From: a virus
Length of the DNA: 27,613 nt
IMG/VR virus record: IMGVR_UViG_3300024238_000005
Location: 1 to 27,613 of that record
Reading direction: 5' to 3' (one strand)
In this document: positions 8,576 through 27,237 of the stretch, piece by piece
Layout: every line of letters starts with the position of its first letter
Position numbering within the stretch: the first letter of the stretch is position 1
Notes under the pieces: generated by a model
The model's database searches: none
Told to the model about the DNA's origin: nothing
The model's input: the letters and a program-made list of their open reading frames with translations, nothing else
Translations under genes and position numbers: made by a program

Positions 8576-10129
8576 ATGGCACTTCAAACACTACCAGGCG
8601 TAACTGGATTTATGTATGCTCGTGTATCCTCTATGGATAAACGTGCTGTAGGAAAGCTTACAGATTCTAATCACCTGGAAGCTTTTCACTCAACAGAACC
8701 CGCAGATTATGATAAGAAAATCATAAGTCTCTACACACAGAGTTCATTGTACAGCAATGATTTTCTGGATATGATTAATAAAAGCACACCTTATTATATT
8801 GATAATAATAGTGATGCTTGGAAATGGGATATTAATGTCCCTTATAAATTCCCGAAGATTATTGATATTCCTTCTGCAACGACAGCCCTCACTACTCCAG
8901 GTATTGATGGACAAGAGTTTGTATTAGTATTAGATACTAATGAATTCTCTAAGAATGCTATTGTTTCTGTTGGTACTCGTCAGTATGGCCCTCGGTTGTA
9001 TGTAGTTAAAGATCCTATGCCTTACAATGCAGGGTATCTTTATACATTCACTCTTGTATCTGATAATCCACTTGTAGACTTTGTTAGTCCTACCTTCCTT
9101 AAAGTTGGAGTAGAGCTTGAACTTGTCGATGCAGCTATTGGAGAATTTGATCAGGATCTTTTAGGTCTTCCTCGTCTTGGAGAAAAAATCACCATGTTTG
9201 AAAGTCTTGGTAGTGGTTATGGTTATGAGCATACTATTACAGAATGGGCTGATACTAAGATGATGAGAGATGCTAATGGCAAACCTCTTGATATTCTTGT
9301 CTATGCTCCACAACGTAGGAATCAGCTTCCTATGACAAAGAATGATTTGAAATGGGAACCATTCATTGAATTCTGGATGCGTAAATCAATGCTTGAACTG
9401 AAGGTTAAAAAGATGATCTGGGGAAAACCTGGAACAGTAAAAACCAATGGTAGTAAGCAAGAAGTTAAACGTACCTCTGCTGGTGTATATCATAGGATGC
9501 GTAATAGTGGAAACTATGTCCCTTATAATAGAGGAGAGTTCTCTGCTAACTTACTCCGTAGTGTATTTGGAGATCTGTATTATAGAAGGGTTGATGTTAA
9601 AGACAGACATGTTAAGCTCTATACAAATGAAGCTGGATTTGATGTCTTTGGACAAGCAATGAAGAATGATGCTCTCAATAGTGGCCTTACATTCATGGCA
9701 GATTCTGGCAACAGATTCTTGCAGGGTGAAGGTCAGCATATCACGTATAACTTTGCATTTGATGCTATGGTTACTCGTGAAACTGGTAGGGTAGAACTTA
9801 TCCACTTGAAAGAGCTTGATCTTCCTCAGACCAATCTTGAGTTTGGGCAGAATAAGAAATCTACTCCTGTCTTCTTTGTATTTGATGTATCTCCTATGAG
9901 TGATGGCTCTATGGTGAATAACATCAGAGAAGTCAGGATGGAAGGTGCTCCTTCTATGACTTGGGGATATATTGATGGTACTCGTCACCACTTAGGATTC
10001 GCAAGATCTCAGGGTATGAGTTCAGCAAATAAATTCCCAGGCTATGAAATCTGGATGAAAGACCGTTGTGATGTATTCATTGAAGATCTTTCTCGTACAG
10101 TATTAATTGAGGAAATTCCACAATTTTAG
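8576..10129 (+). CDS. Major capsid protein
   Basis: A 517-residue protein beginning MALQTLPGVTGFMYARVSSMD, which reads like the crAss-like HK97-fold capsid proteins. The following regions are rich in aromatic and beta-type segments (YYIDNNSDAWKWDINVPYKF; FIEFWMRKSMLELKVKKMIWGK) and the C-terminal part ends in a strongly beta pattern (DRCDVFIEDLSRTVLIEEI). Codons look less A/T-biased than in neighbours (GGT, CGT and CTT are common), as expected for a highly expressed gene. It would form the icosahedral shell. The leader is A-rich, and the gene is followed by a strong hairpin at 10172-10200. Identification is by position, length and overall pattern. Confidence 0.85.
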   Translation: MALQTLPGVTGFMYARVSSMDKRAVGKLTDSNHLEAFHSTEPADYDKKIISLYTQSSLYSNDFLDMINKSTPYYIDNNSDAWKWDINVPYKFPKIIDIPSATTALTTPGIDGQEFVLVLDTNEFSKNAIVSVGTRQYGPRLYVVKDPMPYNAGYLYTFTLVSDNPLVDFVSPTFLKVGVELELVDAAIGEFDQDLLGLPRLGEKITMFESLGSGYGYEHTITEWADTKMMRDANGKPLDILVYAPQRRNQLPMTKNDLKWEPFIEFWMRKSMLELKVKKMIWGKPGTVKTNGSKQEVKRTSAGVYHRMRNSGNYVPYNRGEFSANLLRSVFGDLYYRRVDVKDRHVKLYTNEAGFDVFGQAMKNDALNSGLTFMADSGNRFLQGEGQHITYNFAFDAMVTRETGRVELIHLKELDLPQTNLEFGQNKKSTPVFFVFDVSPMSDGSMVNNIREVRMEGAPSMTWGYIDGTRHHLGFARSQGMSSANKFPGYEIWMKDRCDVFIEDLSRTVLIEEIPQF

Positions 10130-13293: not shown

Positions 13294-13857
13294 ATGCCTA
13301 CACTCAATTTGAATATATTGGTAGTTCCAACTTATGACACATTCACTCTTGGAATTGCTGATGCTTCTACGTATCCAGATTCTCCCCCTGTTGTAACATC
13401 TCCTCTTATAGAGATAACAATTCCCTCTTTTGATACAGTGAGTTTTACTTTTCCTATTCTTGAGACTACATTCTATAATTCTGAGACACTACTTATTACT
13501 CCCTCTGGAGATAATTTAGTTTCTCTTCCTGATGGTATATATACATTAAAATATTCTATTGACCCAGCAGATATAAATTACATAGAACGCTCTATAATGA
13601 GAGTAGATAGGTTACAGGAAAAGTTTGATACAGCTTTTATGAAACTTGATATGATGGAGTGTGATAGAGAGATTAAGACACAATCAAAAGTAGACTTGAA
13701 TAGTATATACTTTTTTATTCAAGGCTCTATAGCAGCAGCTAATAATTGTGCAACAGAGGAGGCTAATAAGTTATATCATTATGCAGATAAGATGTTAGAT
13801 AGATTCCTGGGGGACAATTGTGGATGCTCAGGAAATAATTATAAGAAAAACTTTTAA
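13294..13857 (+). CDS. Beta-domain plus helical structural protein
   Basis: A 187-residue protein. Residues 1-92 are beta-rich and end with LPDGIYTLKYSID (78-90), an Ig-like closing strand resembling IPDGIYTLSVVDS in the protein at 24861. Residues 93-172 are helical (ERSIMRVDRLQEKFDTAFMK; EEANKLYHYADKMLDRFLGD), and the end is Cys-rich (NCGCSGNN). The ATG follows the terminator at 13235-13276 by 18 bases; no promoter consensus was seen, so it may rely on read-through or a phage-specific promoter. The two-part design suits a virion adaptor that links an outer beta domain to the particle. The family is not recognised. Confidence 0.55.
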   Translation: MPTLNLNILVVPTYDTFTLGIADASTYPDSPPVVTSPLIEITIPSFDTVSFTFPILETTFYNSETLLITPSGDNLVSLPDGIYTLKYSIDPADINYIERSIMRVDRLQEKFDTAFMKLDMMECDREIKTQSKVDLNSIYFFIQGSIAAANNCATEEANKLYHYADKMLDRFLGDNCGCSGNNYKKNF

Positions 13858-13878
13858 TAACCGATAAACCAATAAGTT

Positions 13879-14010
13879 ATGCCAGTTTGCAAATCATGTG
13901 GAACATCTGTCGGATGTGGATGTCAGCTAGTAAATGGATTATGTGTCAAATGTAATTCAGTTCTTACAGAGAGTCAAAATAAACCAGAGGAAAATAAGAC
14001 AGAAAAATAA
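13879..14010 (+). CDS. Very small zinc-ribbon-like protein
   Basis: A 43-residue protein with Cys4-x2-Cys7, Cys13-x-Cys15 and Cys22-x2-Cys25: two CxxC knuckles about 15 residues apart, as in a zinc ribbon, followed by a polar tail (ESQNKPEENKTEK). The ATG at 13879 comes 21 bases after the previous TAA, and the TAA at 14008-14010 is five bases before the next start, so it fills the space between two genes exactly. It may be a structural zinc module of the fibre complex or an assembly factor. The gene is short, but the Cys spacing and packing support it. Confidence 0.6.
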   Translation: MPVCKSCGTSVGCGCQLVNGLCVKCNSVLTESQNKPEENKTEK

Positions 14011-14015
14011 ATGTC

Positions 14016-15635
14016 ATGTTAAATCCAAGACTTAGAGATTGTAAAGAATATAATACAATTCCTTCCTTAATAAAGGCTATTGATTGTAAGATAAGTAAGA
14101 TAGCTACAGCTCTTTATAATAATACTATATTCTCTTTAAATATTAGTATTGATTCTGATACAATGCTAAGTCTTTTAAATTATAGAAGAATTCTATTGTA
14201 TAAGTATTGTAATAGTGAGTATGCAAAGAGAATTGAATTAGATAAGATCATTAGTAAAGTAAAACTGTTAACAGCAGGATGTAAACCTAAATGTCTTCCA
14301 AAGGATAGTTTTCATAGAGGTACTATTACAACTACTACAGCTATTCCAACATACATGACTTATATAGTAAATGTCTTTTCTTGTAATGGAGAAGATGCTT
14401 GTGGAACAGTAGTAGCTACTAATGTAAGATATACAAACTTAGCTAGTAATCAAATATTAACAAATGGAAATTTCTATAAGTATATAAATGTCTTTGAGAT
14501 TATTTTATGTTTAGGGGTGTTAACTCCAGAAGAAAATACCTTTTATATATGGGAAGGTGGAGAGACTTCTTGTTCTGCATTTAATTTTCATTGTACTACA
14601 ACAACTACTACAACTGCTCCATCTACTACTACTACTACTACTACAACTGCTCCATCTACTACTACTACTACTACTACAACTGCTCCATCTACTACTACTA
14701 CTACTACAACTGCTCCATCTACTACTACTACTACTACTACAACTGCTCCATCTACTACTACTACTACTACAACTGCTCCATCTACTACTACTACTACTAC
14801 AACTGCTCCATCTACTACTACTACTACTACTACAACTGCTCCATCTACTACTACTACTACTACAACTGCTCCATCTACTACTACTACAACTACATCAACC
14901 ACAACTACATCAACTACAAGTACTACAACTACTCAAGGAAGTTCTACATCCTCCACAACCTCTACTACTACTACACTTCCACCAATTGTACAAGAATATG
15001 GATATTTATATAATTGGTATGCTGGAACTGATGCAAAAAATATAGCAAATGTAGGTTGGCATAATCTTACTGTTGCTGATATGGTAAATTTAAGATTATA
15101 TTTAGACCCTACAGGTACAGCATATACTAATGTTGCTGGTGGACATATGAAAAGTAGTGGAACAACTTATTGGAATTCTCCTAATACAGGTGCTGATAAT
15201 AGTTCTAAGTTAGATTTTAGAGGATCAGGAGATAGAGATCAGGTAGGTAATTTTGCTTTAAATAAAGGTTCTTGTTGGATATGGAATACGCAAGATTTAG
15301 GAGGAGAACTTGGTGGAGGAATAGCTACATTGGCTAATAATAGTGCTAATTTTATTACTGAATCTGGATACACTTCTAGTTCTAAACGTGTTGGTGCTTC
15401 TATAAGATTAAAAAAAGATACAACAACCTCACAACCAGATTTTACTATTATTCCTAATGGATATACAGGAAATGATGGACAAGTTTATGATACTGTTGTA
15501 ATTAATGGTTATGAATGGTTACAGGAGAATATAAAAGAAACAAAATATAGAAACGGAGATGCTATTCCAGAAGTATTGAATAATACATCTTGGTCAGCAT
15601 TATCTACAGGAGCTATGTGTTATTATGTAATTTAA
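14016..15635 (+). CDS. Modular adhesin: Thr-rich stalk and a permuted FISUMP domain
   Basis: A 539-residue protein with four parts. (1) Residues 1-100, helical with paired Cys (CKEYNTIPSLIKAIDCKI; GCKPKC), probably the virion anchor. (2) Residues 112-193, a Cys-containing beta module (YIVNVFSCNGEDACGTVVA) that recurs in the protein at 25918. (3) Residues 194-320, a Thr stalk with nine APS interruptions. (4) Residues 328-539, a FISUMP-type domain (Fibrobacter major paralogous, C-type-lectin style). Its usual second half (YGYLYNWYA, TTYWNSPNTGADNSS, GASIRLKKD) comes first, and the usual first half (GQVYDTVVINGYEWLQENI, KYRNGDAIP, GAMCYY) ends the protein. A receptor-binding role is inferred. 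It lacks a signal peptide, as expected for a virion protein. Part boundaries are clear; the function is likely but unproven. Confidence 0.7.
   Translation: MLNPRLRDCKEYNTIPSLIKAIDCKISKIATALYNNTIFSLNISIDSDTMLSLLNYRRILLYKYCNSEYAKRIELDKIISKVKLLTAGCKPKCLPKDSFHRGTITTTTAIPTYMTYIVNVFSCNGEDACGTVVATNVRYTNLASNQILTNGNFYKYINVFEIILCLGVLTPEENTFYIWEGGETSCSAFNFHCTTTTTTTAPSTTTTTTTTAPSTTTTTTTTAPSTTTTTTTAPSTTTTTTTTAPSTTTTTTTAPSTTTTTTTAPSTTTTTTTTAPSTTTTTTTAPSTTTTTTSTTTTSTTSTTTTQGSSTSSTTSTTTTLPPIVQEYGYLYNWYAGTDAKNIANVGWHNLTVADMVNLRLYLDPTGTAYTNVAGGHMKSSGTTYWNSPNTGADNSSKLDFRGSGDRDQVGNFALNKGSCWIWNTQDLGGELGGGIATLANNSANFITESGYTSSSKRVGASIRLKKDTTTSQPDFTIIPNGYTGNDGQVYDTVVINGYEWLQENIKETKYRNGDAIPEVLNNTSWSALSTGAMCYYVI
14595..14975 (+). 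repeat. Thr(7-8)-Ala-Pro-Ser tandem repeat and Thr/Ser stalk
   Basis: From 14595 to 14876 nine units each encode seven or eight Thr followed by Ala-Pro-Ser (Thr runs 7,8,8,7,8,7,7,8,7), so the repeat period is 30 or 33 bases and always in frame. A less regular Thr/Ser/Gln/Gly tract continues to 14975. Within each unit the Thr codons are mostly ACT with ACA next to last, so units are nearly identical at DNA level and likely to change in number by slippage or recombination. Confidence 0.95.
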
Positions 15636-15647
15636 AATACTATTGTC

Positions 15648-16769
15648 ATGAATTGCAATAATTGTGGTAATGGATGTACAGAGATACAATCTGATAAATG
15701 TATAAAATATACAGGAGTAAATATTCCTGCTCTTGGAATAAATAATGGGGATTATTTATGTCAGGTAGAGACACAGATAATTGATTTTCTTCTAACAGCA
15801 TTAGATGGAACTGGAGTGATAATAGACGTAGATCCCCTTTGTGAGATTGTATCTTCTAATCTTACAGTGGAAGAAGAACTAACTATAGTGAATGTTACTA
15901 CAGCTCTAATAAAGACTGCCTGTAGTCTACAGACACAAGTAACAAGTCTCTCAGATAGTATTACATCTATTACAGAGGCTATCTCTACAATAGAAGCAGA
16001 ATATACTATAGACTGTTTAGTAAATGTTACTACCTCTTCTGGAACTCATGCAATACTTCAGGAAGTAATAACTACTCTCTGTGAGTTACAGACTAATCTT
16101 AGTACAAACTATATAGCAGGAGGGGCTCCATTAAATGAGTATATACAGAACTATCTTGATAGTCAGACAACTGCTTCTCTTATGAGAGATAAGATGGTTC
16201 CTTATGTTGCTATGGAATATTTTGGCCCAATGAGTTATTTTGATTCTTCAGGGGCTGGTACTGGAGATTGGGTAAGTATTTACCTCTGTAATGGAAGAAA
16301 TAATACTCCAGATATGAGAGGGAGGATTCCTGTATGTGCTATTCAGGGGATGAATGGATTAACATTAGATCCTGAAGTAGATCCAAATGAATCTTCTGAT
16401 AATCCTAATTACAGTCTTAGTGATAAGGGAGGAAGTAATGCTGTTACATTAAGTATCAATCAGATACCAACACACTCTCATAATAACTTAGGGGATGTTA
16501 CTATAGTTCCTCACACACACTTCACTGTATCAGAAGGATCAAGTGGTGTATTAACATCTTCTACTCCTATAAAGAGGGGAGTAACTCTTGGAGGAAATAC
16601 AAGTTACGACTTACAAGGAGCTTCATCTGTTGCTACAGAGGGATTAACAAGTCCTACAGAACAGAGTATTGTGTCAGTAAATATGACTAATGCTAGTGCG
16701 GGAGGAAGTCTTTCTCATACGAATATCCCGCCTGTTATCTCTTGTTACTACATTATGTATCGTCCTTAA
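15648..16769 (+). CDS. Short tail fibre with tail-collar domain
   Basis: A 373-residue protein. Residues 1-50 contain a small anchor-like segment (CIKYTGVNIPALGI) shared with the next gene. Residues 75-175 are helical and hydroxyl-rich, suitable for a trimeric coiled coil. Residues 187-373 match the phage tail collar domain: LCNGRNNTPDMRGRIPV (213-229), a Gly-Gly segment before VTLSINQIPTHSHN (266-279), a second His pair in PHTHF, and the closing NIPPVISCYYIMYRP. Such domains end the short fibres of many tailed phages, and the HxH pairs can bind metal on the trimer axis. It begins 12 bases after the adhesin stop. Binding to the host surface is the expected role. Confidence 0.8.
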   Translation: MNCNNCGNGCTEIQSDKCIKYTGVNIPALGINNGDYLCQVETQIIDFLLTALDGTGVIIDVDPLCEIVSSNLTVEEELTIVNVTTALIKTACSLQTQVTSLSDSITSITEAISTIEAEYTIDCLVNVTTSSGTHAILQEVITTLCELQTNLSTNYIAGGAPLNEYIQNYLDSQTTASLMRDKMVPYVAMEYFGPMSYFDSSGAGTGDWVSIYLCNGRNNTPDMRGRIPVCAIQGMNGLTLDPEVDPNESSDNPNYSLSDKGGSNAVTLSINQIPTHSHNNLGDVTIVPHTHFTVSEGSSGVLTSSTPIKRGVTLGGNTSYDLQGASSVATEGLTSPTEQSIVSVNMTNASAGGSLSHTNIPPVISCYYIMYRP

Positions 16770-16780
16770 TAGAATATGTT

Positions 16781-17002
16781 ATGACAAAATGTAATACAGA
16801 ATACATATCAATAGGAGGATATGCATATCCTAAGGGATGTGTTCCTTCTAAGAAGATAATTCAAACAGGGGATATTAAATATAATGGAGTCGAACTCCCT
16901 TGCTTACATGTACAACCATGTGACTCTCTTAATACTATATTAAGTCAGTTGAACTCTATACTCTGTACTTTGACTACAACAACAACACAATATCCAGCAT
17001 GA
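16781..17002 (+). CDS. Small protein sharing the fibre anchor segment, Thr-tailed
   Basis: A 73-residue protein. I chose ATG 16781, 12 bases after the fibre stop, over an in-frame ATG at 16742 that lies inside the fibre gene. It has several Cys, then IKYNGVELPCLHVQPCDSL followed by a helix (TILSQLNSIL), which matches the N-terminal segment of the upstream fibre (IKYTGVNIPALGINNGDYL). It ends with five Thr and QYPA. It overlaps the next gene by four bases (ATGA). It looks like an anchor module without its fibre body and may pair with the fibre or be a remnant of a longer protein. Confidence 0.55.
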   Translation: MTKCNTEYISIGGYAYPKGCVPSKKIIQTGDIKYNGVELPCLHVQPCDSLNTILSQLNSILCTLTTTTTQYPA

Positions 17003-17244
17003 CAATTTATTTAAAAATAGATAGTGTGGGAGATTCTATAAGTACATTTAATCTCTATTCAGATGTTGATGGATTCTTAGTTTCATTCTATACTGATATG
17101 CCTAAAGAGGAGTTGATAGCAGGAACTAATTGTGAAGCTCCTATTAATACCTCTATAGTGGAGATTAGAGCAAATGACACTTGTAGTAATTCGATATATG
17201 TTACTCTTACCACTACCACAACAACTACAGAAGCTCCGTCTTAA
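16999..17244 (+). CDS. Single FNLY-type module with a Thr tail
   Basis: An 81-residue protein made of one beta-rich module (residues 1-70; STFNLYSDVDGFLVSFYTDM, then a late TCSNSIYVTL) followed by seven Thr and EAPS. The module is clearly related to the N-terminus of the protein at 25918 (PFNLYTDLDNYATPFATDV; LCTGAIYLSV) and less closely to the start of the protein at 27237. The 4-bp ATGA overlap with the previous gene suggests coupled translation. It may bind another virion protein through its module, leaving the Thr tail free. The gene is followed by a hairpin at 17280-17303, ending the fibre block. Confidence 0.6.
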   Translation: MTIYLKIDSVGDSISTFNLYSDVDGFLVSFYTDMPKEELIAGTNCEAPINTSIVEIRANDTCSNSIYVTLTTTTTTTEAPS

Positions 17245-17279
17245 TATTCTGTTTTATTGGTTTAGCAGAATATAGAAAG

Positions 17280-17303
17280 CTCCTCAGGATTTATTCTGGG
17301 GAG
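17280..17303 (+). terminator. Hairpin ending the fibre block
   Basis: CTCCTCAG at 17280-17287 pairs with CTGGGGAG at 17296-17303 (one G-T pair) around an 8-base loop, 35 bases after the stop of the small FNLY-type gene. No clear U-run follows. Its place just before a promoter-like site supports a role as a transcription boundary. Confidence 0.5.
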
Positions 17304-17359
17304 TACCTATGTAAATAACTAATTTAATTATAATAAGTAATTGGTTTAGTTAAAAATAT

Positions 17360-17390
17360 TTTGAGAGCATTAAAAGAAAATCTATCTTTA
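17360..17390 (+). promoter_or_regulatory. Bacteroidetes-type promoter for the neck and tail block
   Basis: TTTG at 17360-17363 is followed after 19 bases by TATCTTTA at 17383-17390, one base away from TAnnTTTG. Transcription would begin near 17397, about 28 bases before the ATG at 17425, the same leader length as predicted for the promoter-like site at 476-507. Confidence 0.45.
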
Positions 17391-17424
17391 CTAAAAGTTT
17401 AGATGTCATATAAATAAGTAAAAC

Positions 17425-18174
17425 ATGCCAACCCTTAGATCACTGGTATCTAGTGTTAGAAGTTCACATAAACTACTTAGCACTGACACACTTGCTACCG
17501 ATAGATTCATTGCTTCTGAGATTAGAAATGCTACATTATTTCTAGTTAAGAGGGAGACAAACCTAAGAAAGCTTTGGGCTACAGATAGTATTTTTACCAC
17601 TATCCCTTGTCTGGAATTAGTAGAAGTTCCAATCTCAGAATGCTGTGGATATACAGACCCTTGTACAATAGCACGTAGCAAATATCCTCTTCCTAGAATA
17701 TCAGAAGGTAATTATCAATATGTTATACAAGGAGTCTATTCTATAAATGCAATGGGAGGTAATGGGAATAGACTTAAGGAGATATCTATTAATAGATATT
17801 TGAATCTGTTGAAACTACCTATTATTAAGAAGGAAGATTACTTCTGGATATCTAATGGATATTTATACATAACTAATCCTAATCTACAAGCAGTAAGACT
17901 TGTTGGTATGTTTGAAGAGGATATACCTAATGAGATGATGTATCCTGAATGTGGATGTGGTCAGAATGTATCTGATGAAGAGTGGTGTAAAAACCCTCTT
18001 GATAAGGAATATTCTCTTCCTGGGTATTTAGAGAAGCAAGTATTAGATTTAACTTCTCAGAAGTTATTGTCTACTTATTTTAGATTAAGAGCTGATGTAT
18101 CTCAAAATGATATTGATGAACAAGCACCAAATGGCCCTATGCAAAACCAACAACAAACTCAACAGAATAGATGA
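17425..18174 (+). CDS. Neck or tail ring protein (tubular, P22 gp4-like candidate)
   Basis: A 249-residue protein starting MPTLRSLVSSVRSSHKLLS. The N-terminal half is helical (DRFIASEIRNATLFLVKRET) with a conserved-looking LELVEVPISECCGYTDP, the centre is beta-rich (FWISNGYLYITNPNLQAVRL), and a C-terminal helix carries YLEKQVLDLTSQKLLSTYFR. The end is Gln-rich and likely disordered. The layout matches crAss-like neck ring proteins below the portal. The last helix is also similar to the connector candidate at 11278-12009. It overlaps the following HU/IHF-like gene by four bases (ATGA). The exact position in the neck cannot be told from sequence. Confidence 0.6.
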   Translation: MPTLRSLVSSVRSSHKLLSTDTLATDRFIASEIRNATLFLVKRETNLRKLWATDSIFTTIPCLELVEVPISECCGYTDPCTIARSKYPLPRISEGNYQYVIQGVYSINAMGGNGNRLKEISINRYLNLLKLPIIKKEDYFWISNGYLYITNPNLQAVRLVGMFEEDIPNEMMYPECGCGQNVSDEEWCKNPLDKEYSLPGYLEKQVLDLTSQKLLSTYFRLRADVSQNDIDEQAPNGPMQNQQQTQQNR

Positions 18175-18662
18175 GACAACATGTAGACTTTAGTTCTGTT
18201 AGTGATATTAACTACAAGGATTTTAAGAAGAAACATCCAACAATTAAACTCTCTTATAAAGAGTGGAGAGCTATTTCTAATTCTTTTGTAGATCACTTTA
18301 GAACACATATTTTAGAGACAGGAGAAAGGGGAAGACTCCCCAATGGATTAGGAGAATTTACAATTAGAAAAAAGAAGAGGGATAAGACAGTTATAATTAA
18401 TGGAAAGGAATATATAAATCTCCCTGTAGATTGGAAAGCCTCAAAAGAGAAGGGTAAAAAGATTTATAATTTTAACTATCATACTGATGGTTTTTTCTTT
18501 GGATGGTTATGGTGTAAAAGAACTACTATCTTTAGAAACTCTAAGGTATGGGTTTTTAGACCAGCTAGAGTAGCATCAAGATCAATAGCCAGATACATAT
18601 TCTCTGATGAGAAATATAAAGATATTTATAAGGAGTGGAGTGCTGTTCCTAAATCAGGATAG
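18171..18662 (+). CDS. HU/IHF-like subunit of the crAss-like neck block
   Basis: A 163-residue basic protein. Residues 30-65 follow the HU/IHF pattern: a helix YKEWRAISNSFVDHFRTHIL and then RLPNGLGEFTIRKKKR, equal to the 'v.l.glG.F.v..r' strand of HU proteins. Residues 66-163 add a basic, aromatic extension (GFFFGWLWCKRTTIFRNSKV) and a C-terminal helix. Genes annotated as IHF subunits by remote similarity are typical of crAss-like structural blocks and sit in this place, next to the ring proteins. The extension suggests it has become a virion part rather than a free nucleoid protein. It shares a 4-bp overlap with the upstream ring protein gene. Confidence 0.6.
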   Translation: MRQHVDFSSVSDINYKDFKKKHPTIKLSYKEWRAISNSFVDHFRTHILETGERGRLPNGLGEFTIRKKKRDKTVIINGKEYINLPVDWKASKEKGKKIYNFNYHTDGFFFGWLWCKRTTIFRNSKVWVFRPARVASRSIARYIFSDEKYKDIYKEWSAVPKSG

Positions 18663-18681
18663 GATATAAATAATTAAGATT

Positions 18682-19650
18682 ATGAGTTATTATTATAAAT
18701 ATGCTTTTGTTAGTCCAGAGCCTATATATGCTGTAGTGAGAGAAGAACTAAAGTCATATATGGATACTGGAGCTGTTGACAGTCTACTTTTTCCAACTTA
18801 CACAGATAAGTGTCTGAGAAAGTTGGGGAGATCTTCCTATGTTATAACAGAGGATCTTTTACATTTAGAGGATTTTGAAGCGAGACTTCCTGATAATTTT
18901 TATGCTGTTAGAGAGGCATGGCTTTGTACAGAGGTAAATGGAAGATCTTTTCAGGTTGCAAGTTCATTCTATTCTCAAACTCTTTCCACTACAATACAGA
19001 TTTCTCCTTTTATTGTAGATGGAGAACCTTGTACAAATCCTAATTGTACTAATCCTAATTGCTCTGGATGTGGAGAAGATGAATGTATGCCAGAAGTAAT
19101 ACAAGCTGTTTATAAGACTAACCATGAGATGCCAAGAACTTTCAAGAAACAATTCCTATTAAAACCAGGAAATATTTCAGCAAAGAAAAGTTGTGATGTA
19201 AGTTATATAGATGCATGGGGATCTGTCCCAAATAATAGGACACTCCCATTCTCTTCAACATACGACTCTTTTGATGTAAGAGGAAATAAGTTTGTTACTA
19301 ATTTTAGGAATGGAACTATTTATCTTTTATTCTATGCTACAGAGTATGATAGAGAAGGAAATCAATTGATCCCAGATAATATAAGAATAAGGGATTATAT
19401 AGAAGCCTACCTAAAATATAAAGTCTTTGAGACTTTAAGTAATCAGACTAATGATGAGACTTTTCAACAGCTTCAACAGAAGATGGCCTATTATAAAACT
19501 ATGTCTGATGAGGCATATATTTTAGCAGATATAGAGATAAAAAAACAGACAGTTTCTCAGAAGCAACATAATATAAAGAGACAGTTAAATAGTTTTAGTA
19601 GATATGAAATCCCTACCTCTTCCTATAGAGGAATTAGGTACAGACGTTAA
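18682..19650 (+). CDS. Conserved neck/tail ring protein
   Basis: A 322-residue protein. It starts SYYYKYAFVSPEPIYAVVRE and has a helical segment, then a beta domain (YAVREAWLCTEVNGRSFQV) interrupted by a Cys-rich hairpin at about 116-134 (CTNPNCTNPNCSGCGEDEC) that could hold zinc. The late segment GTIYLLFYATEYD followed by DYIEAYLKYKVFETL repeats the order seen in the two ring candidates at 11278 and 17425. The C-terminal helix is basic and ends SYRGIRYRR. It lies between the HU/IHF-like gene and the muzzle gene, where crAss-like phages keep their neck proteins. The Cys hairpin looks like an insertion. Confidence 0.6.
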   Translation: MSYYYKYAFVSPEPIYAVVREELKSYMDTGAVDSLLFPTYTDKCLRKLGRSSYVITEDLLHLEDFEARLPDNFYAVREAWLCTEVNGRSFQVASSFYSQTLSTTIQISPFIVDGEPCTNPNCTNPNCSGCGEDECMPEVIQAVYKTNHEMPRTFKKQFLLKPGNISAKKSCDVSYIDAWGSVPNNRTLPFSSTYDSFDVRGNKFVTNFRNGTIYLLFYATEYDREGNQLIPDNIRIRDYIEAYLKYKVFETLSNQTNDETFQQLQQKMAYYKTMSDEAYILADIEIKKQTVSQKQHNIKRQLNSFSRYEIPTSSYRGIRYRR

Positions 19651-19660
19651 TACTTAGCAG

Positions 19661-22600
19661 ATGGCTGAACAGGAACAACCACAAGGTAATATAAGACAAG
19701 AATCTAATACTGCGACAGTAGGACTTAATTTAGATCAGACTCTCTCACAAGTACGTAAGGGACAATTAACTTTTGCCCTAAATGCTGCTGTAGAAAACTA
19801 TGATGCTAATAGTATAAATTATACTAATGAAGAAGGAAATGAATTTTGTTTAAGTTTTCCTGAGGGACTTATTCTTATTGGTAAACATTTTATCGCAGAG
19901 AGGAATAAGCATATATTTATGCTGGCTAGTAAAGATAAATCTGTAAGTCAGATTGGGTATATGGAGAACAATGATTGTATCTATCATACCCTTATAGAAG
20001 CTTCCTGTTTAAATTTTGATATTCATTATCCTATACATAAGATTGTCCATAAAATTACAAATTGCTCTACAGAGATTTATTGGGTCGATGGTCATAATCC
20101 AAGAAGATATTTAGATATTGATAATATTCCTTTTAAGTTAAAATATGGAACGGTATTCTGTGATCCTAATTATACAGATGAAGTAGATTGTAATCAGTTA
20201 ACCTTACAACCAATTTTCTCTATACCACAGATTAATATTATAGATGTGATAGCAGGAGGAAATAATACTGCGGGAACTGTTCAGTTTGCTGTACAATATT
20301 CTGATGCTGTAGGAGATCCTTATACCTCTTACTATTCTATTACCAATCCTACTCCTATTTATGATCCTACTGATGTTACAGTGAATTTTAATACGCATGT
20401 TGGAAAATCTGTGGTAGTAAAGATTAGTAATCTAGATACAACAGGAGAGTTTCATTTCTTCAACTTAGCAGTAGTTAAGACTATTAATGATATTCCTTCT
20501 GTAGAACTTGTAGGAACTTACTCTATAGAGGATGTAAGTAAAACGATAACATATACAGGGCAGGATGTCTCAAGTGTAAGACTTAGTATCAATGATATAT
20601 TTGAGAAGTTTCCTTTTTATGAAATAGCCAATGATGTTACAGTGGTAGATGATGTTCTTGTATGGAGTGATTTAGCTACCTCTGAGAGATTAAACTGTCA
20701 GAAGATTGCTAATCAGATCTCTCTTAAGTGGGAAACATGGAGAATTCCTCCTACAGAGAATTATGCAGATGAGATTAATGCTACGAATTTTAGAGGATAT
20801 CTGAGAGATGAGGTATATTCTTATGAGATTGCATTTCTCTTAAATAATGGAAAACAGACAGATGGTTTTCATATTCCTGGGAGAGGAAAGAGTGCTCTTG
20901 AACAGCATTCTGATATACAAGAGACAGACCCAGATTTTATAGGAACACCAGATTATTATTCAGGAGGGATAGGTTATTCTCCATATTGGAAGATATATAA
21001 TACAGCTTCTGTTACAAACTTCTCTCCAGAGTATATCTCAGATCCTAAGTATAAAGGGCCATATCAATATGGGGAGTTCTCATATTGGGAATCAGAAGAG
21101 ACTTATCCTTGTGATAGTAATGTCTGGGGAGACTTAGCAGGGCAGAAAATTAGACATCATAAATTCCCTGATGTCTTAGTTAGCCCTATTAATGAGTCTA
21201 AAGTCTTTATATCTCCTTCTACAATGGAGATGGGTAATAATGCAATATTCCCTATAGGAGTTAAGATAGATAAGAATCAGATTAAATCTCTTATTAGTAA
21301 TTCTTCTTTAACTAAGACACAGAAAGATAGTATCGTAGGATTTAAAATCCTAAGAGGAGATAGGGGAACAAACAAGTCTATTATTGCAAAGGGTATATTA
21401 AGAAATGTAGGTACATATAAAAGAGAAGATCAGGAGTATTACTTTCCAAATTATCCTTATAACGACTTAACAACAGATCCATTTCTTAATGGGAGTAATA
21501 ACGCTTTTGCACAACTCTGTAATACGTATGATATAAATATTAAGATATTAGGAGCAAATCATACAGCCGAAGTACAATATAAGGATTGCAATACAAATAA
21601 GATAAATAAGAAGGTTTATACAGAAATAGGCTCTTATGAGTTATGCTCTACAGAAAAGCCTACTATCTCTGGAGATGCAATAGGAACAACAGGCATAGCT
21701 ACTTATGAGATATGGAGAGTATCTAGTTGTGCTCTCTGTAGAGGATGGAGAGTGGGATGGGATGATCCTATAGAGGGTTATAGAGAAGATTGGGTAGATG
21801 GTATGGGAGGAAGTATGCACATCAATGTTATAGTAGGAACAGAAGGGCCTAAACAAGTAGGTGGTGATGGTACTTCAACTATAGAATATATAGAACTACA
21901 TACTCCTAGCACATCTTGTAATCAGATACAGAGTCTTCCTAGTATAAAAGAAACTCCTACATTAAGTTATAGACAAGTATTTAATTCTCCTGAGACCTCT
22001 TTTGGTCAACCATTCTTAGGAGATGTATTAAAACTTGAGAGTGTTATATATGGTACTGGAAAGGCTCATTTTACTGAGGTAAAGAAGAATGCTAAGTATA
22101 AACTTATAACAGAAGAAGTACAAAGAGATGCATTGAGAAGTGCAGAAGCTCTTGGATTATTAACTCATCCATTAGATGCTACTGCTATGTTTACAGCATA
22201 TCAGGCTTATCTGACTATATATGTAAATGGTATTACCAGAAAGAATTATGCATATTCTTTCAACTCTATAGCAGACTATAACTATTTAGCTTCTATTCCT
22301 AATGGATTAGGAGTAAAACAACGTTCTCTGGATATAGCAAAATACCTAATACCTGGGGTACAATCAGTAGGGCATAAAGAGTTAAATATTAATAATTATA
22401 GTAGAGAGTCTTCTGTTTTCTTAAGAACAGATATAAATAAGACAGCTCTCCCATTTCCAGATGAAACTCCCTCATTAGTCTCAGGAGGTAGTAGTGTTAT
22501 TAAAGAGAAGTCAAGATTTACTATCTCTGATATAAATAATTGTAGTACTCCTGGAAAGGAAGAACCTATACAAGTAGTAAGTTATTATGCTTCTATAAAG

Positions 22601-24859
22601 AATCAGATAGTAAATCAATGGGGACAGATATATTCTTATGAGACTATTGATACAGGATTTCAGGTAATATTCGATACTAATGAGAATCCTACAACAGTTT
22701 TTGGAGGAGATACATTCATTGGAAGACATACATTTAAGACTAAACTCCCCTTCTTTTTTGATAATAGGGTTAATGCCCCTGATGATAGTGATATATTCTA
22801 TGATGAGATAGGAAATGTTGCCTATCCTAAATACTGGCATTCAGCTAGATCTATTCTAAAAGATTATACAGTAACAGATGCAGGGTTATTAAGTAATATT
22901 ATTGCGTATAAAGCACATAATTTTGATTGCCCCAATACCCCATCTGATTTTGTAACAGTTCCTTATACTCCTCCTACTCCAGGTACTACTACTACCACTA
23001 GTACCACTACTACTACCACCACTATATATAAAAATGGAGATGAAATAAGTAGTAGTACAATAACTTATTATGATGGCTATTTCTATTTATTTGCTTATGG
23101 AGTTCCAAACTTCTATTGTGAGAGTAGTTATAACATGGATTTAAGACAAGCTTTTAATAATAGAGAAGGAGAGTATTGGCCTCATGTTAATACAAATATT
23201 CCTGATGAATGGGTACAAGAAAGCTTTGTTCCTATTGCACAAGATAACACATATTATTATAACGTAACGTTTTCTAAGCAAAACAAAGAAAGTTACTTCT
23301 CTCATCTCCCTATAGAGTGGAATATAAACTGTCATACTTATTACCCCTTTAGAGCTATTGTTTCTGATACACAGAATAGAGATGCAGACGCAAGAGTAAA
23401 TGCATGGCTTACATATAGAGCTGCTTCCTATTTTGATTTTCCACAGAACTATGGGAAGTTAATATCTCTTGATGGAGTACAGAATAGTCAGGTGCTAGCG
23501 AGATTTGAGAATAAGAGTTTACTCTATCATAGTATGCTTACTATTAATACAAGTAATCCTCTCTCTGCCTATATGGGAAATCCTAACTTATTTAGGGGCA
23601 CACCTCCATTAGATTTCGCAGACACAGATCTTGGATATGTAGGTAGTCAGCATAAATTTCTATTAAAGATTCCTCAGGGACAAATTACTATTGATGCTAA
23701 GAGAGGACAGATATTCTTATTAGATACGGATGCTTATGGTAGACCACAAGCGCATGATCTCTCAGGTTTTGGCTCTGGGTTAAATAGATTCTTTACAGAT
23801 CATCTTGCTTTTGAAATATTAAGATATTTCCCAGAAGTAGATATAGATAATGCTTTCACCTCTGTAGGACTACATGGAGTGTATGATAGCAAATATGATA
23901 GGGTAATAATTACTAAGCTGGATTATATTCCTATTGATTCAGGGATAAAGTATGATTCTTCTCTTAAAGAGTTTTATATAGATAAAAATATAGGAGGGGC
24001 TTTAATAAGGACAAAGGTGGAGTTATCTGATCGAGATTACTTCTGTAATAAGAGTTGGACTCTTTCATATAATATAACTACAAAATCTTGGATATCTTTT
24101 CATAGTTATTTACCAAATTGGTATATTGCAGAGAATAATTTCTTCTATTCTGGATTGAATGAATGCTGTGATGACTTTGATTTTATAGTAGATGTCTTAG
24201 GAGAGAATCCTCCAGATTGTAACCTACAAGGTCATCTTACAGTGATACCAAAGATACCATGTCTTATAGATGTAGAAATTCCAGAGTGTACAACAGCTCC
24301 AGAAGTAGGAGATGATTTTCAAGGAGGAAAGGTAGCTTATATATTACAAGAGAGTGATCCTGGCTTTATAGAGGGAGTCGTAAAGGGGTTTATTGTGACC
24401 CCTTCTGATTTAGGAACATTTGTAAAATGGAGTAAACATGCATCATATCCTCTTCCAAGTGTTTCAACATCTATCTCTATAGGAGAAGGAGGAAATAATA
24501 CTCAAGCTATTCTCTTAGTAGAAGGGAACAGTGGGAGTTATGCTGCTAAATTATGTGCAGACTATGTTATAGACGAATATAATGATTGGGTATTACCTTC
24601 TAAGGATGAGTTAAATAAGATACATCAGAATAGAGCAGTATTAGGATTAGATTCAGAGACTATTACAAGTTATTGGAGTAGTAGTCAAGGAGATAATAGT
24701 AATGATGCTTGGATGCAAATATTTAATTATCCGGGACATGAAGGCCAGCAACAACAAGATGCTAAACTATTCGGGTACTTTATTAGAGCAATAAGATATT
24801 TTACTATTCCTAATCCCTGCACTACTACTACAACATCTACAACAATTATTCTTGAATAA
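19661..24859 (+). CDS. Tail stabilisation (muzzle) protein with Thr insert and DUF1566-like C-terminal domain
   Basis: At 1732 residues this is the largest gene. The N-terminus (GLNLDQTLSQVRKGQLTFAL, YDANSINYTNEEGNEFCLSF) resembles the crAss-like tail stabilisation protein (P22 gp10-like; the 'muzzle' of phicrAss001). The body is beta-rich with many Tyr and Asn. At 1109-1121 a tract of twelve Thr and one Ser interrupts the body, and the typical sequence resumes at YYDGYFYLFAYGVPNFYCES. Residues 1545-1716 are an added DUF1566-like domain: GDDFQGGKVAYIL, DWVLPSKDELNKIHQN, SYWSSSQ, then FIRAIRYF. A second Thr tract (1721-1728) ends the protein. The body should close the tail tip, and the added domain probably binds a surface ligand. 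Start: ATG ten bases after the ring gene stop. Confidence 0.8.
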   Translation: MAEQEQPQGNIRQESNTATVGLNLDQTLSQVRKGQLTFALNAAVENYDANSINYTNEEGNEFCLSFPEGLILIGKHFIAERNKHIFMLASKDKSVSQIGYMENNDCIYHTLIEASCLNFDIHYPIHKIVHKITNCSTEIYWVDGHNPRRYLDIDNIPFKLKYGTVFCDPNYTDEVDCNQLTLQPIFSIPQINIIDVIAGGNNTAGTVQFAVQYSDAVGDPYTSYYSITNPTPIYDPTDVTVNFNTHVGKSVVVKISNLDTTGEFHFFNLAVVKTINDIPSVELVGTYSIEDVSKTITYTGQDVSSVRLSINDIFEKFPFYEIANDVTVVDDVLVWSDLATSERLNCQKIANQISLKWETWRIPPTENYADEINATNFRGYLRDEVYSYEIAFLLNNGKQTDGFHIPGRGKSALEQHSDIQETDPDFIGTPDYYSGGIGYSPYWKIYNTASVTNFSPEYISDPKYKGPYQYGEFSYWESEETYPCDSNVWGDLAGQKIRHHKFPDVLVSPINESKVFISPSTMEMGNNAIFPIGVKIDKNQIKSLISNSSLTKTQKDSIVGFKILRGDRGTNKSIIAKGILRNVGTYKREDQEYYFPNYPYNDLTTDPFLNGSNNAFAQLCNTYDINIKILGANHTAEVQYKDCNTNKINKKVYTEIGSYELCSTEKPTISGDAIGTTGIATYEIWRVSSCALCRGWRVGWDDPIEGYREDWVDGMGGSMHINVIVGTEGPKQVGGDGTSTIEYIELHTPSTSCNQIQSLPSIKETPTLSYRQVFNSPETSFGQPFLGDVLKLESVIYGTGKAHFTEVKKNAKYKLITEEVQRDALRSAEALGLLTHPLDATAMFTAYQAYLTIYVNGITRKNYAYSFNSIADYNYLASIPNGLGVKQRSLDIAKYLIPGVQSVGHKELNINNYSRESSVFLRTDINKTALPFPDETPSLVSGGSSVIKEKSRFTISDINNCSTPGKEEPIQVVSYYASIKNQIVNQWGQIYSYETIDTGFQVIFDTNENPTTVFGGDTFIGRHTFKTKLPFFFDNRVNAPDDSDIFYDEIGNVAYPKYWHSARSILKDYTVTDAGLLSNIIAYKAHNFDCPNTPSDFVTVPYTPPTPGTTTTTSTTTTTTTIYKNGDEISSSTITYYDGYFYLFAYGVPNFYCESSYNMDLRQAFNNREGEYWPHVNTNIPDEWVQESFVPIAQDNTYYYNVTFSKQNKESYFSHLPIEWNINCHTYYPFRAIVSDTQNRDADARVNAWLTYRAASYFDFPQNYGKLISLDGVQNSQVLARFENKSLLYHSMLTINTSNPLSAYMGNPNLFRGTPPLDFADTDLGYVGSQHKFLLKIPQGQITIDAKRGQIFLLDTDAYGRPQAHDLSGFGSGLNRFFTDHLAFEILRYFPEVDIDNAFTSVGLHGVYDSKYDRVIITKLDYIPIDSGIKYDSSLKEFYIDKNIGGALIRTKVELSDRDYFCNKSWTLSYNITTKSWISFHSYLPNWYIAENNFFYSGLNECCDDFDFIVDVLGENPPDCNLQGHLTVIPKIPCLIDVEIPECTTAPEVGDDFQGGKVAYILQESDPGFIEGVVKGFIVTPSDLGTFVKWSKHASYPLPSVSTSISIGEGGNNTQAILLVEGNSGSYAAKLCADYVIDEYNDWVLPSKDELNKIHQNRAVLGLDSETITSYWSSSQGDNSNDAWMQIFNYPGHEGQQQQDAKLFGYFIRAIRYFTIPNPCTTTTTSTTIILE
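22985..23023 (+). repeat. Poly-Thr tract inside the muzzle protein
   Basis: Thirteen codons (twelve Thr, one Ser) follow a Pro-rich stretch (PYTPPTPG). It is the only Thr tract here that sits inside a large protein body rather than between small modules or at an end. Confidence 0.9.
24821..24844 (+). repeat. Poly-Thr tract at the muzzle C-terminus
   Basis: Eight codons (seven Thr, one Ser) just after the DUF1566-like domain and a Cys, four residues before the stop. Confidence 0.9.
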
Positions 24860-25917: not shown

Positions 25918-27237
25918 ATGAATATAATTATAACATTAACTCTTGCAGGAACTGATACAGGGCCATTTAATCTGTATACAGATCTTGATAATTATGCAAC
26001 ACCATTTGCTACAGATGTAGAGAAATCTGTCCTATTAATAGGAGGTAGTTATTCTATTCCTGATAGTGTTAGTATAGTAAAGGTATTATCTACTGGTTTA
26101 TGTACAGGAGCTATTTATTTAAGTGTTCCTACTACTACCACAACAACCACTAGTATATCTACAACGTCTACCACTACTACTATCTCTCCAACATCTACAA
26201 CTACCACTACTACAACAACATTATATCATCCACCATCCTTAGAGATAGATGTAAATACTTTTGGTGTAACTCCTTCTGAGTATGGTATTAGTTGTGTTAA
26301 GGTAGGTGGCAATCCTTGTTTTGGAGGTTCTGTAGGTTATGGAGATATAACCTCACAACAATTTATAATTGGATCTACATTTATAGGAACACAATCTCTT
26401 ATTGTATCTGCTGATGGTGCTGGACATATAGGTAGTACTATTTCTGTTATAGATAGTCTTGGTACAGTTTCTACATTAGCTTATTCAGGGGCAGGAGATT
26501 ATACATTCCCAGGAATTGTGATAGATAATATTACAATGATAATAGTAACAATGAATGTTCATTATGTTACAACCACTACAACAACGACAACAATAATTCC
26601 AGTAATTCAGAGATATACAGTGAATATCTATGAGTGCTCAGAGGGATCAGCTTGTGGAAATCTTATAGCTTCTAATCAACATTATTCTAGTTACTATGGG
26701 TCATTAACAGTAGGACATTTCTACTATAATGGATATGTCTATGAAATAGTTTCTTATGACGGATTATATCCATATACTACAATGATGTATGTAACAGGAG
26801 TAGGAACCGCTAATTGTTCTGACTTTGATAGTTATTGTGTATCTCCTCCTACAACTACAACAAGTACTACTCCAGGAACTACTACCACTACATCCAGTAC
26901 AACTACTACGACTACAACACTTCCTCCACTTAATTGTTCAGGACTTAATATTTTAAGTTTAGATGCTACAGGAGGAACAGGAGAAGTAAGTTGTAGTATG
27001 TCTGTTGTTGATCCAAATAACATTCTTCAGGCTGCGTCTTTTGTTCTCTTTACAGAGAGTTTAGGATTTGTGGAAAATGGGGCAGATTATTCTATTTCTG
27101 GACATAGTGCAACAGCAACCTATACTTTCACAGGAGTAGCTCCTGGAAATTATATCTTTAAGGGATCAGTTTTCTCTGGGACTTGGGGTTGTAATTATTC
27201 TTCATTAGATCAGTCAAATACTGTAACTGTAAGCTAA
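25918..27237 (+). CDS. Four-domain Thr-linked modular protein
   Basis: A 439-residue protein with four small beta domains joined by three Thr tracts. Domain 1 (1-71) is an FNLY-type module. Domain 2 (102-217) is Gly-rich (PCFGGSVGYGDITSQQFIIG; YSGAGDYTFPGIVID). Domain 3 (226-311) is the Cys-Gly module also found in the adhesin at 14016 (YTVNIYECSEGSACGNLIAS; HFYYNGYVYEIV). Domain 4 (335-439) is Ig-like (ATYTFTGVAPGNYIFKGSVF). It has no signal peptide. The TAA shares a base with the ATG of the next gene (TAATG). The beads-on-a-string build suggests a flexible fibre or decoration protein whose domains are exchanged with other genes of this block. No enzymatic motif is seen. Confidence 0.6.
   Translation: MNIIITLTLAGTDTGPFNLYTDLDNYATPFATDVEKSVLLIGGSYSIPDSVSIVKVLSTGLCTGAIYLSVPTTTTTTTSISTTSTTTTISPTSTTTTTTTTLYHPPSLEIDVNTFGVTPSEYGISCVKVGGNPCFGGSVGYGDITSQQFIIGSTFIGTQSLIVSADGAGHIGSTISVIDSLGTVSTLAYSGAGDYTFPGIVIDNITMIIVTMNVHYVTTTTTTTTIIPVIQRYTVNIYECSEGSACGNLIASNQHYSSYYGSLTVGHFYYNGYVYEIVSYDGLYPYTTMMYVTGVGTANCSDFDSYCVSPPTTTTSTTPGTTTTTSSTTTTTTTLPPLNCSGLNILSLDATGGTGEVSCSMSVVDPNNILQAASFVLFTESLGFVENGADYSISGHSATATYTFTGVAPGNYIFKGSVFSGTWGCNYSSLDQSNTVTVS
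26131..26220 (+). repeat. Poly-Thr/Ser linker 1 of the four-domain protein
   Basis: Thirty codons, mostly Thr with Ser, Ile and one Pro, between domains 1 and 2; the longest linker in this protein. Confidence 0.9.
26569..26592 (+). repeat. Poly-Thr linker 2 of the four-domain protein
   Basis: Eight uninterrupted Thr codons between domains 2 and 3. Confidence 0.9.
26851..26919 (+). repeat. Poly-Thr/Ser linker 3 of the four-domain protein
   Basis: Twenty-three codons of Thr and Ser with a single Pro-Gly, between domains 3 and 4. Confidence 0.9.

Follow-up and report, generated by a model that had tools for sequence, protein, structure and literature searches.

The 27,613-nucleotide stretch analysed here (hereafter the window) covers positions 1 to 27,613 of a crAss-like phage record in IMG/VR (IMGVR_UViG_3300024238_000005), a metagenomic contig, and is apparently a genome fragment. 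TerL and portal genes were detected, together with a Crass_capsid gene (8576-10129), genes for ring proteins 2 and 1, and a gene for the muzzle protein (ORF 19661-24859). Between the crAss-like capsid and ring genes and a tail-type ORF at 15648 lies an intact ORF on the plus strand (14016..15635), which encodes a putative stalked virion protein of 539 residues with a permuted FISUMP domain at its tip. A search of PHROGs returned no family for this protein.

The protein begins with a head (residues 1-93; 14016..14294, +) that is common to related phages bearing other tips and is the probable virion anchor. The head is followed by a module (residues 102-193; 14319..14594, +) that is 94% conserved in a sister phage, L349. 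This module recurs in a second Thr-stalked ORF of the window (25918-27237), where the copy (26572..26934, +) is 44% identical (E = 4.4e-17). A Thr-rich stalk (residues 194-320; 14594..14975, +) then leads to the FISUMP domain; it contains a 30/33-nt tandem array encoding T(7-8)APS units (14594-14894, +) and marks where the L349 tip swap begins on the left.

An earlier note on this DNA had described the FISUMP-type domain as carrying its two halves in swapped order. The motifs occur as claimed: YGYLYNWYA, TTYWNSPNTGADNSS and GASIRLKKD, then the SQPDFTIIPNGYTGND joint, followed by GQVYDTVVINGYEWLQENI, KYRNGDAIP and GAMCYY. The FISUMP C-half is placed first (YGYLYNWYA...GASIRLKKD, residues 328-468; 14997..15419, +) and the N-half last (TGNDGQVYDTVVINGYEWLQENI...GAMCYY, residues 484-537; 15465..15626, +). 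Read from the sequence, a new joint connects the old C-terminus to the old N-terminus (residues 469-483; 15420..15464, +), and the final residues VI and the stop codon (15627..15635, +) follow a domain end that coincides with the canonical CxY/YGxLYNWY joint. The codon of Y328 lies at 14997, one base before the start given earlier, and the domain continues to the stop at 15633-15635, closing with GAMCYY-VI-stop. The statement that the ends of the protein fall exactly at the canonical joint holds for the domain and for the C-terminus of the protein, but not for its N-terminus, which lies 327 residues upstream, beyond the stalk, module and head. Other permuted ORFs end similarly (CYYIL, CTYLF, CYYTIP or CAYNNDxxNV), and the D-TTLTHGQTGTYVGNDG type of joint is also present in relatives of the window domain.

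The Pfam model PF09603 matched the protein in two stretches at 40.1 bits (gathering cut-off 33.9; E = 5.9e-10), which excludes a chance match. TIGR02145 scored 22.3 bits, below its cut-off of 41.65; a model built on the linear order is split by a permuted domain, and linear family models such as this one under-call permuted FISUMP. To compare the two orders, we used hhalign to align a profile built from 47 permuted domains, the window domain heading the set (A3), to one of 30 bacterial domains (A4). In native order, the alignment gave two swapped hits: canonical positions 65-191 were matched by residues 1-141 of the domain (E = 5e-49), and canonical positions 2-55 by its residues 157-210 (E = 3e-28). 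Rotating A3 at the joint gave a single hit over 2-191 (183 columns, E = 2.5e-76), with a score of 474 versus 307 and 179 for the two native-order hits. The rotated window domain is 42% identical to a bacterial domain (L093) over 183 columns, and invariant positions are present in both halves across the permuted family. Two swapped hits in native order and one collinear alignment after rotation, the comparison that the earlier note had proposed, indicate circular permutation. It is virtually certain from these alignments that the window domain carries the FISUMP halves in swapped order. At the level of sequence, the domain is a circularly permuted variant of the family rather than an ordinary member: it shares the conserved motifs of both halves with FISUMP/Fib_succ_major proteins (PF09603, TIGR02145), but its halves are reversed, its ends lie at the CxY/YGxLYNWY joint and it falls short of the TIGR02145 cut-off. 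In the open-licence literature searched, we found no description of a FISUMP permutation.

AlphaFold2, run with A3 on the permuted domain, placed both halves in one fold (pLDDT 93.1, pTM 0.89), with the N-half among the most confident regions. In a Foldseek search of BFVD, the two best matches were viral models with the same order that aligned from end to end (TM 0.87 and 0.90). The structure prediction suggested by the earlier note thus yielded one confident fold and not two separate incomplete ones. The new ends are predicted to lie close together and the halves to be in contact, as judged from pTM and pLDDT and from the shortness of the canonical loop. The short joints on both sides, together with the C-type lectin (CTL) fold discussed below, are consistent with adjacent parental termini and adjacent new ends. 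A single-chain prediction cannot discriminate between this arrangement and a mature tip in which the permuted sequence forms a domain-swapped oligomer, with the N-half of one chain completing the C-half of its neighbour. Stalked phage appendages are often trimers, and the 15-residue joint could permit such swapping. However, the single chain already folds in the prediction (pTM 0.89), and the varied contexts in which the domain occurs, including internal insertions, favour a self-contained unit. We therefore consider the domain-swapped oligomer improbable.

A sequence search of the PDB with the permuted and canonical forms found no solved FISUMP, and a Foldseek search of the PDB with the permuted model gave no match at E < 1e-3, as expected for a permuted order. 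We therefore modelled a canonical bacterial relative (pLDDT 96.5), which matched CTL folds over its full length (1-191), including TvpA (Z 8.4), Mtd (Z 6.5), Lcl-CTD (Z 6.2), the formylglycine-generating enzyme and invasins. Taken singly, Z values of about 8 or below carry little weight, and the argument for a CTL fold rests on the consistency of the match list: among the matches listed, CTL-fold chains dominate. CTL chains likewise head the list for the permuted model, but only over residues 1-147 and with Z about 3, a partial match that fits the swapped connectivity. FISUMP is thus predicted to have a C-type lectin fold.

Among known systems, Mtd of Bordetella phage BPP-1 and TvpA have the CTL fold that canonical FISUMP matches over its full length, and they share the fibre-tip position that we infer here for the window domain. 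Both differ in being unpermuted and diversified by a diversity-generating retroelement (DGR), of which the window fragment shows no sign. The C-terminal domain of Legionella Lcl (Lcl_C/DUF1566; 8q4e) has a related CTL-like fold, but differs from the window domain in belonging to another family with canonical topology. The tail fibre proteins of zeta crAss-like phages combine a stem with a C-terminal CTL domain as binding tip; unlike the window protein, they are under DGR control and no permutation has been reported for them (PMC12386605).

The window tip could likewise be a DGR variable domain, like CTL-fold tail proteins elsewhere among the crAss-like phages. DGRs are known to target Fib_succ_major and DUF1566 domains (PMC4159848, PMC8143477), and the CTL tips of zeta crAss-like phages are under DGR control (PMC12386605). 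Yet a reverse transcriptase was found in only one of the 49 records searched and nowhere in the window, an absence that is weak evidence given that many records are fragments, and the window, itself a genome fragment, contains no template-like repeat. With one reverse transcriptase in 49 records, and that one adjoining another likely target, a DGR is unlikely to be the driver of the permuted class, and we regard a DGR-variable tip in the window as very unlikely. The record concerned (L356:13800-17881, -) carries a permuted FISUMP gene (13800-14444) and the reverse transcriptase (15051-16121); the ORF beside the latter (16409-17881) ends SSYGVSVLSVTFGSRLCL, and the locus may be a DGR that targets a gene other than FISUMP.

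An initial viral scan with the window as query retrieved 41 loci, mostly in the same order as the window. To remove this query bias, we scanned a sample of IMG/VR with an order-blind DNA pattern for YGxLYNWY and assigned the halves with half-domain HMMs. Among the matches listed, 33 distinct C-halves were permuted, 62 were canonical and 5 were flanked on both sides. The corresponding search of bacterial and archaeal genomes, via YGYLYNWY, gave 113 canonical domains versus 1 permuted, and this sole case on a bacterial contig (L086) adjoins a gene for a phage portal protein (phrog_11226, E = 1e-68). No permuted pair occurred among the FISUMP domain hits in 118 Bacteroidota genomes, and a search of plasmids partially matched a single FISUMP gene, in Persicobacter. 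The permuted order was found in >60 distinct phage domains from many samples, as well as in a GenBank phage genome (OP947161) and in L350, a protein with a related head. The GenBank case, gp88 of Rhodobacteraceae phage LS06-2018-MD05 (WBC28475), comes from a complete genome record and has the permuted order along its whole length; it differs from the window protein in being a stand-alone protein of about 210 residues with no Thr stalk, encoded in a genome with no crAss capsid match. As for other crAss-like phages, in which the earlier note had suggested looking for this order, a crAss capsid is present in 19 of the 49 records searched, nearly all of which carry a permuted domain. The permuted form belongs to phages, where it is common without being universal. 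The proviso that this order might simply be the ordinary one for the family is thus half borne out, since phages often have this order but the bacterial DNA searched yielded none of it. Half order is a simple marker of phage versus host, with the permuted order common in phages and unseen in the bacterial copies examined.

Stand-alone permuted phage proteins measure about 210-250 residues. The minimal permuted ORFs, read stop to stop, comprise 220 (L004), 214 (L277), 226 (L261) and 210 residues (L001); they contain little beyond the permuted unit and end at CxY or a few residues past it. These proteins bear on the alternative named in the earlier note, in which the two halves are remnants of successive copies in a tandem array, a C-half from the first and an N-half from the second, and form no single fold. 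Such a remnant could form, as phages and bacteria both contain canonical tandem arrays with short joints of 6-13 residues (L241, L316 and L104). By contrast, the confident AlphaFold model spans both halves and has full-length counterparts in BFVD, a single C-half with a single N-half recurs in dozens of diverse phages, minimal ORFs included, and the invariant positions fall in both halves across the family. Together, these observations make left-over halves highly improbable. The collinearity after rotation, the single predicted fold, the stand-alone proteins and the BFVD matches instead uphold a true circular permutation with both halves in one fold, which we consider very probable from sequence and model. 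A canonical FISUMP gene altered by an assembly rearrangement or mis-joined reads is conceivable for a single metagenomic contig, but a chimeric assembly is ruled out by the same order in the >60 distinct domains, OP947161 and L350, leaving this explanation a negligible probability.

To examine the origin of the permuted form, we built a tree of rotated sequences (180 rows), in which 65 of the 71 permuted rows group together and 6 lie outside the main group. For a reduced 65-row set, a tree constrained to keep all permuted sequences in one clade exceeded the unconstrained search by 38.9 in lnL (p-AU 0.935), and a single origin is thus not rejected by the AU test. It falls short of proof, because internal tree support is low and the constraints shared at the new joint could draw permuted sequences together in such a shallowly supported tree. 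The permuted unit probably arose once, in phages, and a phage-specific form with one main origin appears reasonably likely. A plausible route would start from the canonical tandem arrays as intermediates: duplication of a canonical N-C unit, followed by loss of the outer halves, would leave the old C- and N-termini connected by a short joint, with new ends at the old CxY/YGxLYNWY loop.

The earlier note had proposed that the ends were moved so that the domain could be hung from the Thr stalk. This rationale did not survive the comparison, as the permutation is widespread in phages, a Thr stalk is absent from most permuted copies and canonical FISUMP also sits at protein C-termini. The two forms differ in what follows them. 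Permuted domains are more often embedded in longer proteins: at least 60 residues followed the domain in 22 of 59 permuted cases, but in 5 of 53 viral cases with the canonical order (P = 7e-4) and in 7 of 82 such bacterial cases (P = 4e-5). Because its new ends must lie adjacent, the permuted unit is likely to be insertable; it may hang on a stalk, stand alone, or enter loops of other proteins, its own kind included. Adjacent ends, which would make an insertable and exchangeable binding cassette, offer a testable rationale for the permutation.

In nine arrays (L002, L003, L010, L011, L015, L034, L166, L168 and L238), n YGxLYNW-type strands come first and are followed by n bodies, the later bodies having no YGxLYNW strand; L168, for example, has three strands and three bodies. 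Five further arrays (L014, L026, L031, L234 and L248) have no extra stacked strands, and their later bodies keep their own strand. The order of parts in the nine stacked arrays leans towards recursive insertion of one permuted domain into another, at the loop that follows the latter's first strand.

Sister phage L349 shows how the tip varies on an otherwise conserved protein. We aligned L349:1-4308, a contig fragment that starts inside the gene and so leaves the head outside it, to window positions 14281-18900. The two are 94% identical over 14281-14678 and 97.8% identical over 15648-18900. Between these regions, from the first stalk unit to the stop codon, the tip of L349 is wholly different, with a weak fn3 match and no FISUMP, and homology starts again at the ATG of the next gene. 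In the related proteins L350-L355, residues 1-93 are matched at 51-56% identity and the C-terminal parts differ. L350 keeps the head (56% identity over residues 1-93) and a Thr stalk, and carries a permuted FISUMP domain ending GAMCYYTIP. As the L349 tip differs between near-identical flanks and L350 retains the head, the tip appears to be an interchangeable piece on a conserved base, as receptor-binding tips are, and we consider it likely that the FISUMP domain is such an exchangeable tip. The repetitive stalk DNA would be a natural site of exchange. With its neighbouring genes nearly alike, this sister pair represents a natural experiment in tip exchange.

The fold, the tip position and the tip exchange suggest that the tip probably binds a host receptor. 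In the window phage, the permuted domain would then serve as the tip with which a Thr-stalked virion appendage binds its receptor. The head and first module would be kept and the tip traded between sister phages via the repeated stalk and the 3' end of the gene, altering the surface to which the phage adheres. We are fairly confident that an ancient circular permutation gave rise to a phage adhesin cassette whose ends are adjacent, and that the window phage uses it as a receptor-binding tip that can be exchanged. The fuller account, in which one ancient, phage-specific permutation produced a plug-in cassette that spread across phage groups, is swapped at Thr-stalk tips and nests recursively, is evenly poised.

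Poly-Thr (ACN)n runs occur in many virion ORFs of the window phage (13130-13205, 14594-14975, 16970-17000, 17210-17244, 22966-23024, 26130-26230 and 26849-26919) and are possible shared stalk or recombination joints. At the C-terminus of the muzzle protein (ORF 19661-24859), a Lcl_C/DUF1566-like domain (24407-24796; E = 4.8e-7, below the Pfam cut-off) is a candidate second CTL-type tip.
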